This document shows, one piece after another, positions 16,476-54,865 of a DNA stretch of 64,000 nt (position 1 is the first letter of the stretch; every line of letters begins with the position of its first letter). Source of the DNA: Thermovorax subterraneus (GTDB taxonomy: Bacteria; Bacillota; Thermosediminibacteria; Thermosediminibacterales; Thermosediminibacteraceae); NCBI GenBank assembly GCA_021608145.1, contig JAKIHM010000002.1:62001-126000 (forward strand), in the 5' to 3' direction. The translations under genes and the position numbers were made by a program. The notes beneath the pieces are model-generated. The model was given only the letters and a program-made list of their open reading frames with translations. It had not been told where the DNA came from and searched no databases.

Positions 16476-16937
16476 TTATAATAGACCCAATGACTTTTTC
16501 ACCTCGTTTACCAATTTTACAAACTCAAAATATTTCTCCTGAATTCCTATTACAGTAAGTGGCCTGCCGACTGCTACAAGGCCTATTCTCCGAGAAAGAA
16601 TTCCCCCTATTTTTGTTTTTAAATTCACCAAAGGAATCGTGTCCACAAAGAAAATATATTTTGTCTTTATATTGTTGTATTTTAGAAAACTCAATATGGC
16701 GTTTTTTACAAGCTGCCGCTGGCCAGTCATTCCGATTATGTAAACTTCGGATCCTTTTTCATCTTTCCCCATAAAAAAAGGAGTTCCAATTTCTAAAGAA
16801 TCGGTCTTATCGTAGTGCGGCAGATTTTCAATCTCGTGAAAACCAGGAACCCTGTCTTCAGGAAGCCAGCCAAGATGTATGGCTGCTGCAACCACTGACG
16901 AGTGTGCACTTCCGTAACAACAGTAAAATATTTTCAT
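16476..16937 (-). CDS. DUF3189 family protein, copy 2
   Basis: A 153-residue protein starting MKIFYCCYGSAHSSVVAAAIHLG, with a central GTPFFMGKDEKGSEVYIIGM and a C-terminal conserved IFVDTIPLVNLKTKIGGILSR. It is clearly related along its whole length to the upstream neighbour, so the pair is a tandem duplication. DUF3189 proteins are found mainly in spore formers; function unknown. The small, alpha/beta look with an N-terminal CCYGS-x-H loop could suggest a nucleotide or phosphate binding fold, but this is speculation. Confidence 0.85.
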   Translation of the reverse strand: MKIFYCCYGSAHSSVVAAAIHLGWLPEDRVPGFHEIENLPHYDKTDSLEIGTPFFMGKDEKGSEVYIIGMTGQRQLVKNAILSFLKYNNIKTKYIFFVDTIPLVNLKTKIGGILSRRIGLVAVGRPLTVIGIQEKYFEFVKLVNEVKKSLGLL

Positions 16938-16949
16938 CCCATCACCTTT

Positions 16950-17396
16950 TTAAACCGACTTTTTTATGTTTTCCACCTTTTCTTTTAGTTTTTTAAAACT
17001 CTTTTTGATTCCCATCATAATCAAAAAAGTCCCTATCCGTTTAAGATTCAACTTCTGGAAAATAAAGCATCCTACGGCAAAAAAGATATTTCCGAAGGGC
17101 AGCAAATCAACAAAAATCACTGAGTCTTCTCCCATATTATAAATCCTCGCAATGCCTTTTAGCGCCTTTTCTACAACTCTTCCCGTTTTTTTTGAACTCA
17201 TTATGTAAATTCTGCCCCTAGATTCATCTTCACCAACAAAGTAAAGTTTTCCCCATTGGCATTTGCCTAATTTCCCAAAATATGGCAGGTTTATGATTTT
17301 CCCAAAATCAAATTCATCTATAAGGCCAAGATGCAAGGCGGCAGCCACTGCCGCAAGATAGCTGCCGTAATAACAAGAATATATCACACTTTTCAA
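16950..17396 (-). CDS. DUF3189 family protein, copy 1
   Basis: A 148-residue paralogue of the next gene downstream: MKSVIYSCYYGSYLAAVAAALHLG lines up with the other copy's N-terminus, and IFVDLLPFGNIFFAVGCFIF with its C-terminal motif. The His that follows YGS-x in copy 2 is Leu here (YGSYL against YGSAH), so the two may differ in activity. It lies between the capping-subunit gene and copy 2, with 12-15 nt gaps, in one apparent sporulation-linked operon. Confidence 0.84.
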   Translation of the reverse strand: MKSVIYSCYYGSYLAAVAAALHLGLIDEFDFGKIINLPYFGKLGKCQWGKLYFVGEDESRGRIYIMSSKKTGRVVEKALKGIARIYNMGEDSVIFVDLLPFGNIFFAVGCFIFQKLNLKRIGTFLIMMGIKKSFKKLKEKVENIKKSV

Positions 17397-17411: not shown

Positions 17412-17606
17412 TTAGTGTCGAACTATAACGTAAGTACCGTTTTCCAGGTCATGCACCATGCCTGAAAGTATGCGTGCAAGATTAAGCGCTATTTTTTCCC
17501 TTTCCTCTTCGTCTTTTGCGTAAAAGACAGGCACTCCTGAAGCAGGTTGAGTTCCATCGATCGTCACTATCGCCAGTATAATTTCCGATAAACCTATATT
17601 TTCCAT
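17412..17606 (-). CDS. capping complex subunit for YIEGIA
   Basis: A 64-residue protein, MENIGLSEIILAIVTIDGTQPASGVPVF then FYAKDEEEREKIALNLARIL and a short C-terminal strand. It matches the small family annotated as capping complex subunit for YIEGIA, and lies next to the YIEGIA gene as expected. The ATG at 17606 is seven nt after AGAGG; a TTG three bases earlier is too close. Its ribosome binding site overlaps the stop of the interrupted YIEGIA frame, so the two would normally be translationally coupled, and the internal stop there may lower its expression. Confidence 0.78.
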   Translation of the reverse strand: MENIGLSEIILAIVTIDGTQPASGVPVFYAKDEEEREKIALNLARILSGMVHDLENGTYVIVRH

Positions 17607-17616
17607 CAAACCACCT

Positions 17617-17793
17617 CTAATCAGCCGCTTTCCTTCCGGCTTTTGATTTAAGGGGTTTTCTTCTCGTACTTTCGAGGACTGGTACCATTTTTACTGCATC
17701 AAGTAGCGCTTCAATATCCTTTTCCATTGGGACTATTACAAGGCCAACTCTACCGGTTTTTAAATCAATTCTTACAAGGGGAGTGAAATCTAT
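17617..17793 (-). pseudogene. detached C-terminal part of the YIEGIA gene
   Basis: Directly after the TAA at 17796-17794, the same frame stays open for 58 codons to a TAG at 17619-17617. It encodes FTPLVRIDLKTGRVGLVIVP, then EKDIEALLDAVK, then LKSKAGRKAAD, which reads as a normal domain end. There is no start codon with a ribosome binding site; the first ATG in frame is at 17727. It is best seen as the 3' end of the upstream gene cut off by one nonsense codon or a base error. Confidence 0.75.
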
Positions 17794-18510
17794 TTAGTTA
17801 ACATCCCTTTTCACTCCTAAAAGAGCTGCTACATCATGGGCTATTGCTTGCCTTTGGCCAATGTTAAAAAGCGAAGCCCTTGCATTGTCATCTTTCGGTT
17901 CTATTATCACACCGAGCCCTTGTTCCAGAAAAATCCTTCTCGAATCGGGGTGACCCACGTTCATAAACTGTATGTTTTCGATGCATAAAATTGAACCATC
18001 GAAAAAAATTTCAGCAGGCCTTACAACAGCAATATCTCCGAGTCTTTTTCTTTTTGTAAAGAAGCTCAAAATAAAAATCACCGCTAACCCAGCAAAAATA
18101 CCCCACAAAGGTTTTTTGAAAAATTCCACTACTGCACTTGTAATCAAAGAAGTCAGCATCGCAAGGTAGTTCCTCGATTCAAAGGCCTTTGCTATGTCCT
18201 CTATATAAGCAGCTCCCCTCGGAACCAGTTCAGTAACTTCTATATTCCTTAAACTTTCCCTTTCCATATCCCTAATTTCTCTGAACTGCTGGGCAGCAAG
18301 GGCAAGGAAAGTAACCGCAGTATACTCCTTTGCTAAAATAGCTGGAATGGCTACGGATCCGAGGAAAGCTGCGATGAACCCTAAAGCCAGGTGGACCATA
18401 TAGCCCTGCGGATAACTGGGGTATTGCCTGTAGTCGACTCGCAAAAGGTATAATCTACCTATAGTCCCTATCGCAAGACCGGTTATTATTACGGCTACAT
18501 ATCCACCCAT
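17794..18510 (-). CDS. YIEGIA family membrane protein, cut short by in-frame stop
   Basis: The 238-residue product has a first helix (VAVIITGLAIGTIGRLYLL), two more hydrophobic segments (about 40-65 and 135-150), and the name-giving motif as YIEDIA at residues 102-107, with Asp in place of Gly. It then runs through a soluble C-terminal region and stops at TAA, while coding continues in frame for 58 codons. Without that stop it would be about 297 residues, near the family length I recall. The family is sporulation linked. Neighbours spoIIP and the capping subunit agree. Either a real truncation or a sequence error. Confidence 0.8.
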   Translation of the reverse strand: MGGYVAVIITGLAIGTIGRLYLLRVDYRQYPSYPQGYMVHLALGFIAAFLGSVAIPAILAKEYTAVTFLALAAQQFREIRDMERESLRNIEVTELVPRGAAYIEDIAKAFESRNYLAMLTSLITSAVVEFFKKPLWGIFAGLAVIFILSFFTKRKRLGDIAVVRPAEIFFDGSILCIENIQFMNVGHPDSRRIFLEQGLGVIIEPKDDNARASLFNIGQRQAIAHDVAALLGVKRDVN

Positions 18511-18513
18511 ATA

Positions 18514-19677
18514 TCAGCTTTCGTCCCTCTTACTACTATTGTCATTATCTTTTTTGTCGCGCCTTATGTTTCCCAAGAAGTTAGCAAATTCAGTACCCAT
18601 AAACCGCCCTATTTTGCTGGAAAGCTCTTTCCATCCACCGGTGCTGATTAGCATATAGCCTATAAAGCCTAAAGCTCCGACAACTACAATACCGAGCATA
18701 CTCCTCAAAGCGCTCCCTCTTTCTCTTGGAACCTGGGTGGTACTTCCGCCTCCCGGCGCGGCTTTTTTCTGATAATCAGTACCATATAGAGTCGTGGCTA
18801 TAACATCGGCAAGTATTTGCACTCCATCCTGGGCTTTTTCCCTGTAATTTGTGTAAGTACCCGCTTCGATAAGGATGGTCCGTGGAAAGAGGTCCTGATT
18901 GTAGTTCCCTTTTCCGTAAAAAATGCCTTTTATCAAACCGGGATATTTTTTATCGGCTACAGCCTTTATCTGCCACGCAAAATTGTTTATGGTCTTCATC
19001 TGAGGATTCTGCCGCCCCACCACCAGTTGGACTTTGGCCACTGGCTGGCCGTTTACTTGGCCTGTATATTCCTCTGCAGGCACGGCATCCCTGTGTATAT
19101 CTAAAATAGCGTCAGGGTTTTGCTTTAAAAGTTCCATTGCAGTTCGGCGAGACCTCTCATAGGCGGCAGCATCGTGGGGATCGTGCGGACGTTCGGAATG
19201 CAATACGGTAATTCCTCTCTCTTCTAGGGCCTTCTTTAACGCCTTGCCTACCTTAAATATTCCACCATTGTAAGGTATACTGGCCTTTCCATCAGTAGGC
19301 ACGTAGGATTCGTCGCTGTGGGTATGGTAAATAGCCACTGTCCTTTTTTGTTCGGCGTAGTAGGATGTAGACATAGCGCTTTGGTGGTTTGACAGTTGTA
19401 ATTCTTTCAAAACTCTTCCAAGGTCAATTTTTTCCTTAAGTACAGCATATCCCTTGTCCCCTTCAACCCTTACGATTTCGTAAAGATTGTTTTTTTCATC
19501 CAAATATTGGTCTCCGATGTGGATCATCCTTGCTGTGGCAAAAATCTTCTTGTTAGTTTTTTCATCGTATATTGTAAAGTAGCCGTCCGTCCTTTCGTCA
19601 TTTGCAAGACAAAATTGTGGAAATACTCCAGACAACAGCAAAACCAAAAGAAAAGCACAAAGTCCGCGAAATTTCAT
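18514..19677 (-). CDS. spoIIP: stage II sporulation protein P
   Basis: Peptidoglycan amidase/endopeptidase that, with SpoIID and SpoIIM, drives engulfment of the forespore. A signal-anchor helix is at residues 5-25, the catalytic domain starts at VAIYHTHSDESYVP and continues with DIHRDAVP, VVGRQNP and ILIEAGTYTN, which hold the expected zinc-binding His and Glu residues. A second hydrophobic segment lies near the C-terminus (about 330-350), and the tail is charged. Length 387. The start overlaps the DUF1614 stop by 4 nt. No spoIID or spoIIM is in the window. Confidence 0.96.
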   Translation of the reverse strand: MKFRGLCAFLLVLLLSGVFPQFCLANDERTDGYFTIYDEKTNKKIFATARMIHIGDQYLDEKNNLYEIVRVEGDKGYAVLKEKIDLGRVLKELQLSNHQSAMSTSYYAEQKRTVAIYHTHSDESYVPTDGKASIPYNGGIFKVGKALKKALEERGITVLHSERPHDPHDAAAYERSRRTAMELLKQNPDAILDIHRDAVPAEEYTGQVNGQPVAKVQLVVGRQNPQMKTINNFAWQIKAVADKKYPGLIKGIFYGKGNYNQDLFPRTILIEAGTYTNYREKAQDGVQILADVIATTLYGTDYQKKAAPGGGSTTQVPRERGSALRSMLGIVVVGALGFIGYMLISTGGWKELSSKIGRFMGTEFANFLGNIRRDKKDNDNSSKRDES

Positions 19678-20309
19678 TTTTCATCACCTTCTTTTTCTTT
19701 GTCGGCTTTTGATGTCCCTCCCTGGAGTCTTTCTCTTGTTTCTCCAACTAATTCGCACAGTGCAACTCCTATAACTCCTGCAATAACTGCTGCATCGAAT
19801 ACTCCTGCTCCTCCTATAGAGGTCTTTACGGGCTGTCCGGTAAGGCCAAGAGCGTAAATAATGTCGGAAATCAATATACCCATTACTCCTGCTACGAAAG
19901 CTCCCCGCCTGGACCTACCGAAAATATACGCTATCAATCCCGCAAGAATTGAAAAAACAATCAAAGGGTCCATTAACATGGTTTCCGGCTCAGCAGGTAA
20001 TAACCGCCCTCCTATATATACCGCAAGCCCTGTTAACAAGGCTGCTATTATTGCTCTCACTTTTTCCTCATTTTCATCGCAAGTAGCTATAAGGTAGACA
20101 CAAAGGCCGATCGGCACAAGACCGCCCCCAATGTTTATTGAAAACCCCGTTCCTAGCGGTATATTGGGCAAAAAAGTTCCTACGGCCATAGCCCCTATGA
20201 AAAAGAGGGCGGTTCTATCAGATATACGCATTCTGTCCAGGATTCTTTGCAGGAGCCCGAAATATATCAGCACTGCCAGTACCAGCAGCAAAGTGACCCC
20301 TAACGACAT
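19674..20309 (-). CDS. DUF1614 membrane protein
   Basis: About 211 residues with six or so hydrophobic segments and the family-like stretch NIGGGLVPIGLCVYLIAT; GVFDAAVIAGVIGVALCELVGE is the last helix. The protein ends in a charged tail. DUF1614 is widespread in spore-forming Firmicutes and has no defined function. ATG at 20309 has AGAGGTG six nt upstream, better than the TTG at 20327. It overlaps spoIIP by 4 nt, so it is probably made together with it. Confidence 0.85.
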   Translation of the reverse strand: MSLGVTLLLVLAVLIYFGLLQRILDRMRISDRTALFFIGAMAVGTFLPNIPLGTGFSINIGGGLVPIGLCVYLIATCDENEEKVRAIIAALLTGLAVYIGGRLLPAEPETMLMDPLIVFSILAGLIAYIFGRSRRGAFVAGVMGILISDIIYALGLTGQPVKTSIGGAGVFDAAVIAGVIGVALCELVGETRERLQGGTSKADKEKEGDEK

Positions 20310-20378
20310 CCGTTTCACCTCTTTCAAAATTTTTCTTTTTTATCTTACCCAAGCTTTCTTCATTTATTCTGAAGCAAA

Positions 20379-54507: not shown

Positions 54508-54521
54508 CATTTTTATTCAAG

Positions 54522-54865
54522 GATGAGTAGGTCTGTAAGCCGAGTTCTGTCGAGGATGGTCATCTATCTTGGGTGACAGTTGCCTGACACCTCTAGCGAC
54601 CACACCCGGGAGCGCGGCGGGCCACCGCATATGCTCCCCTATTTGGTCTTGCTCCAGGTGGGGTTTACATAGCCGGCCAGTCGCCTGACCGCTGGTGAGC
54701 TCTTACCTCACCTTTCCACCCTTACCCGGCAAAAGCTTTTACCGGGCGGTATATTTCTGTTGCACTTTCCTTGAGGTCGCCCTCACTGGGTGTTACCCAG
54801 CACCCTGCCCTGTGGAGCTCGGACTTTCCTCGGGCACAAACCCGCGACCATCCGACCTACTCATC
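54522..54865 (-). ncRNA. rnpB: RNase P RNA, class A
   Basis: Catalytic RNA of tRNA 5' processing, about 344 nt. The ends pair over P1 (GATGAGTAGGTC with GACCTACTCATC). The core shows AGGAAAGTCCGAGCTCC, GGAAAGTGCAACAG, and CGACAGAACTCGGCTTAC near the 3' end, all conserved. AGAGCTCACCAGCGGTCAGG points to the ancestral class A layout, not the Bacillus class B. It lies between fmdB and the RNase H-like gene, with its own strong promoter. Confidence 0.96.

Follow-up and report, generated by a model that had tools for sequence, protein, structure and literature searches.

A probable recent nonsense mutation in the YIEGIA gene downstream of spoIIP in Thermovorax subterraneus

The interrupted reading frame and its neighbourhood

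Why should a YIEGIA gene, which encodes a membrane protein of sporulation, be split by one in-frame stop codon in a heat-loving bacterium, beyond which the frame stays open and still reads as natural protein? This question is raised by a locus in a stretch of 64,000 nucleotides from Thermovorax subterraneus (contig JAKIHM010000002.1, positions 62,001 to 126,000), which is termed the window here. A preliminary description of the locus left three options, that is, a fresh nonsense mutation, a consensus error or programmed read-through. Among them, the first is best supported, whereas a consensus error is unlikely at the presumed sequencing depth of 445x and read-through is unsupported. We consider it probable (roughly 0.8) that YIEGIA of the window strain has been inactivated or severely impaired by a nonsense mutation that is real and recent, based on the glutamate found in relatives, the collinear frame, the absence of relaxed selection and the deletion of the gene in some relatives.

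In the assembled consensus, the YIEGIA frame begins on the minus strand with the ATG at 18510 and runs for 238 codons to the TAA at 17796-17794, beyond which 58 codons without stop follow up to the TAG at 17619-17617. The open reading frames thus agree with the positions given in the preliminary description. The features of the locus are as follows.

19674..20327, minus strand: DUF1614 / YphA-like membrane protein, operon neighbour
18514..19677, minus strand: spoIIP, intact, operon gene upstream of YIEGIA
17797..18510, minus strand: YIEGIA (PF14045, YphB-like) part 1, codons 1-238, with the membrane helices and the first half of the C-terminal alpha/beta domain; 349 bits, profile positions 1-231 of 282
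17794..17796, minus strand: premature in-frame TAA, codon 239; Glu (GAA/GAG) in 5 of 5 intact genus/family relatives
17620..17793, minus strand: conserved remainder of YIEGIA, codons 240-297, predicted to be untranslated; 49 bits, profile positions 234-281
17617..17619, minus strand: original stop TAG, at the same codon position as in congeners
17611..17618, minus strand: ribosome-binding site of cap, AGAGGTGG, overlapping the original YIEGIA TAG
17412..17606, minus strand: YIEGIA_cap (PF21835), intact, ATG at 17606
16950..17396, minus strand: DUF3189 gene a, intact operon neighbour
16476..16937, minus strand: DUF3189 gene b, intact operon neighbour

Taken as a whole, with its one internal TAA, the gene matches PF14045 with 413.9 bits (cut-off 27 bits) over positions 1-281 of 282, and its two pieces match the profile separately and end to end. 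For comparison, several relatives were used, of which we strongly infer G003, G004 and G005 to be F. ferrireducens, C. acetigignens (Caldanaerovirga) and T. gondwanense, and G006 and G008 to be T. oceani and T. litoriperuensis, respectively. The restored length of 297 residues is exactly that of the protein in G001, G003, G006 and G008, so both the family and the length proposed at the outset hold, and the collinear 49-bit match of the downstream part confirms that it is natural protein. An uninterrupted frame of about 297 codons is present in the other homologues, whereas that of the window copy is broken by the TAA at codon 239. The downstream part had also been said to lack a start of its own, and indeed its sole in-frame ATG sits in VPMEKD, with no ribosome-binding site found in the sequence upstream of it. 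Downstream re-initiation is consequently ruled out.

Compared with relatives, no other mid-gene in-frame stop occurs among the recognised protein genes of the window (about 60 kb covered), and the interruption of YIEGIA is therefore not a matter of chance. The other stops flagged in the first gene-integrity scan were mostly in antisense frames. The hits at 54574 and 54670 are false protein hits that are explained by the RNase P RNA (class A), which is located at 54520-54863 on the minus strand.

The family keeps the order DUF1614/YphA - spoIIP - YIEGIA - cap - DUF3189 - DUF3189 - radical SAM - der, which agrees with the published co-location of the YIEGIA family with SpoIIP (PMC5898192). As had been described, the ribosome-binding site of the cap gene lies over the TAG of YIEGIA. 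The cap start lies 10 nt downstream of the original stop, compared with about 187 nt for the premature one, and, judging from this arrangement, it is plausible that the premature stop hurts translational coupling to cap. Since ribosomes would end that much farther upstream, cap translation may now rely on the ribosome-binding site of cap itself, which remains a good one.

Codon 239 in homologues and the age of the stop

About 100 homologous loci were aligned, a few of which represent the same genome twice. The position of codon 239 is occupied by Glu in 69 of them, mostly by Thr or Asp in the others, and by Glu in all of the five genus or family relatives that keep the gene. A stop at this position is found in the window copy only. 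It had been considered that relatives might also end at residue 238, but no homologue in the alignment does so, and, when aligned with the 297-residue translation, the homologues run through the position without stop. Of the PF14045 copies in the 28 genomes with YIEGIA (61 searched), only that of the window has an internal stop. The codons flanking the stop align without gaps in the genus and family, which indicates that the TAA arose by substitution and not by an insertion or deletion. That is, a single substitution would have turned codon 239, Glu in the relatives, into TAA.

Comparison of the window with G003 gives a dN/dS of 0.077 for the part upstream of the stop and of 0.13 for the part downstream. 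Among the codons that changed in the window lineage only, synonymous changes outnumber nonsynonymous ones by 35 to 11 in the upstream part and by 4 to 1 in the downstream part, and the amino-acid changes are mostly conservative. This pattern is similar in kind to that of the G003 lineage, for which the ratios are 17 to 3 before the stop position and 2 to 0 after it. Since purifying selection persists on both sides of the stop, the mutation is considered to be recent, and long neutral decay is ruled out by the low dN/dS and the mostly synonymous changes of the window lineage. G004 is the sister species of the window genome (support 1.000 in a tree built from five operon proteins), and many more amino-acid replacements would be expected if YIEGIA had been free of selection ever since the two diverged. 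An old pseudogene common to the two species is thus ruled out by the low dN/dS. From these comparisons, the stop appears to be recent and to lie on the tip branch, an error being the less likely alternative.

Effect of the truncation and rival explanations

The structure of the intact YIEGIA of F. ferrireducens was modelled (pLDDT 86, pTM 0.81, 29 sequences), and five long helices up to residue 151 are followed by an alpha/beta domain. The truncated product would lack the strands 245-248 and 255-259 and the helix 266-274, which are modelled at high confidence. The lost stretch is conserved like the rest (mean majority fraction 0.66 vs. 0.65), and the invariant residues P244 and E280 fall within it. 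According to the model, the alpha/beta domain is unlikely to fold and work normally without these parts. With translation ending at residue 238, the product, whose C-terminal domain would be incomplete without these strands and this helix, would probably not work with cap. No fold in the PDB matched that of the model (best E 0.37), and a PDB sequence search for YIEGIA gave nothing significant.

Could the stop be an artefact, then, or be harmless? The window genome assembly consists of 44 contigs and 2,451,452 bases, while the published genome of T. subterraneus 70B(T), obtained from DSMZ DNA by Illumina NovaSeq sequencing at 445x and assembled with three assemblers merged by CISA, has 44 contigs and 2,451,552 bp (PMC9679718). 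Despite the 100-base difference in length, the window genome is almost certainly that of this strain, which its relatives also suggest, and, if this identity holds, substitution errors are very rare at such depth. Because of this inferred origin, it is unlikely that an error of consensus or assembly hides a sense codon and an intact YIEGIA gene, although purifying selection without decay on both sides is the pattern of an intact gene and mistakes may be introduced locally when three assemblies are merged by CISA. Small errors are also hinted at by a yicC homologue, 18 kb away, that is frameshifted at a homopolymer, but none of the 82 reading frames shared with G004 has a mid-gene stop (YIEGIA, deleted in G004, is not among them), and 45 of the 46 ABC ATPase matches are free of internal stops. 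It is likewise improbable that the stop is tolerated, with a 238-residue protein that still works, perhaps with less activity, its membrane part being complete. Such a protein would indeed keep the long helices (1-151) together with the initial portion of the soluble domain, and the coding sequence shows no decay. However, the lost stretch equals the rest in conservation, with two invariant residues, it contributes two strands and one helix to the C-terminal domain in the model, and no homologue stops at residue 238.

With programmed read-through, a little full-length YIEGIA would still be produced despite the UAA. There is very little chance of this, or of read-through at a rate useful to the sporulating cell, in which case the selection beyond the stop would be current and not inherited. 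The frame downstream of the UAA is conserved, and a 9-bp hairpin without mismatches (GGAGTGAAA/TTTCACTCC, 17776-17822) carries the TAA in its loop. Its stem pairs fully in G003 as well, where one base pair differs by compensatory synonymous changes. However, the hairpin pairs too in relatives with a sense codon, and it is mostly dictated by the encoded Gly-Val-Lys / Phe-Thr-Pro. Since most of its pairs follow from the encoded residues, it is judged to be a coincidence; common to the relatives with a sense codon, and with the stretch around the TAA folding no better than shuffles (z +1.06), it was rejected as a read-through signal. Moreover, UAA is an ordinary terminal stop in the window, where it ends 18 of the 52 long frames, and all relatives lack a stop at the position of codon 239. 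None of the 49 tRNA genes found in the genome has a stop-reading anticodon, and a suppressor tRNA was rejected on this ground; one tRNA gene may be unseen, because the published count for T. subterraneus 70B(T) is 50 (PMC9679718). The search for a suppressor tRNA or a recoding context, suggested in the preliminary description, thus speaks against programmed read-through.

Besides the YIEGIA stop, the frameshift of the yicC homologue is the only other disruption, compared with relatives, in about 91 kb. It is located about 480 bases left of the window (G000:C22, about 61520) and consists of one additional base in a T9 run, where the sister species reads TTTTTTCT; either the gene is another genuine pseudogene or the additional base is a homopolymer error. 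On another contig, an ABC-transporter ATPase gene (G000:C3:4152-4569) is apparently broken, being covered by two partial matches that overlap in different frames, one of them with two internal stops.

Gene loss in relatives and comparison with known systems

Is YIEGIA a gene that a spore-former can lose? Over the 61 genomes, YIEGIA is found in 28, cap in 29 and SpoIVA in 54. The cap gene accompanies YIEGIA in all 28 genomes with the latter, and occurs without it in G002 only. The presence of YIEGIA in 28 of the 61 genomes, against 54 for SpoIVA, suggests that it is dispensable in spore-formers (see also the B. subtilis paper, PMC12017682). In G004 (L159:9697-9804), spoIIP is followed by the last few YIEGIA codons, the ribosome-binding site of cap and a cap remnant, which is a pseudogene with its first part gone and one further base missing (frameshifted). 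In G002 (L161:7524-7877), about 170 bases of YIEGIA scraps with stops precede an intact cap. Between this cap and that of G003 there are 26 synonymous changes but only 2 nonsynonymous ones, which suggests that selection on the orphan cap continues in the absence of YIEGIA, or did so until recently. G005 has neither YIEGIA nor cap. Since the extents of the deletions in G002 and G004 differ, they are most likely independent events.

SpoIVA, the small acid-soluble spore proteins (SASP) and SpoVA are kept in the window genome as well as in G002, G004 and G005. The loss of YIEGIA therefore appears to be tolerable and recurrent, the latter three having lost it while keeping their spore genes. General loss of sporulation is ruled out, as SpoIVA, SASP, SpoVA and SpoIIP are present and uninterrupted. 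YIEGIA being an accessory gene, the window strain may still be able to make spores. Besides, 46 pseudogenes are annotated in the T. subterraneus genome (PMC9679718), so that one more is unremarkable.

The genus thus offers a natural series, from the intact gene (G001 and G003) through a single nonsense codon (the window) and scraps with an intact cap (G002) to deletion with a decaying cap (G004). The best explanation for the nonsense codon in the window is that it represents an early stage of recurrent gene loss, the later stages of which are found in close relatives. The series speaks for an accessory role of the YIEGIA-cap pair in sporulation, and raises the question why cap alone remains constrained in G002.

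How does the locus compare with known systems? Similar to cases of stop-codon read-through or recoding, it has an open and conserved frame beyond the stop, but it differs from them in that no conserved stop, stop-reading tRNA or specific context was found. Like YIEGIA of PF14045 (YphB in B. subtilis), the window gene matches the full profile and lies in the same operon with spoIIP and cap; the difference is the one TAA at codon 239. No difference was found from an ordinary recent nonsense pseudogene. Consequently, the allele is most likely ordinary in kind rather than a novel use of the genetic code: like such pseudogenes, it carries a single substitution with no further decay, in a gene that is dispensable and has been deleted in the sister species.
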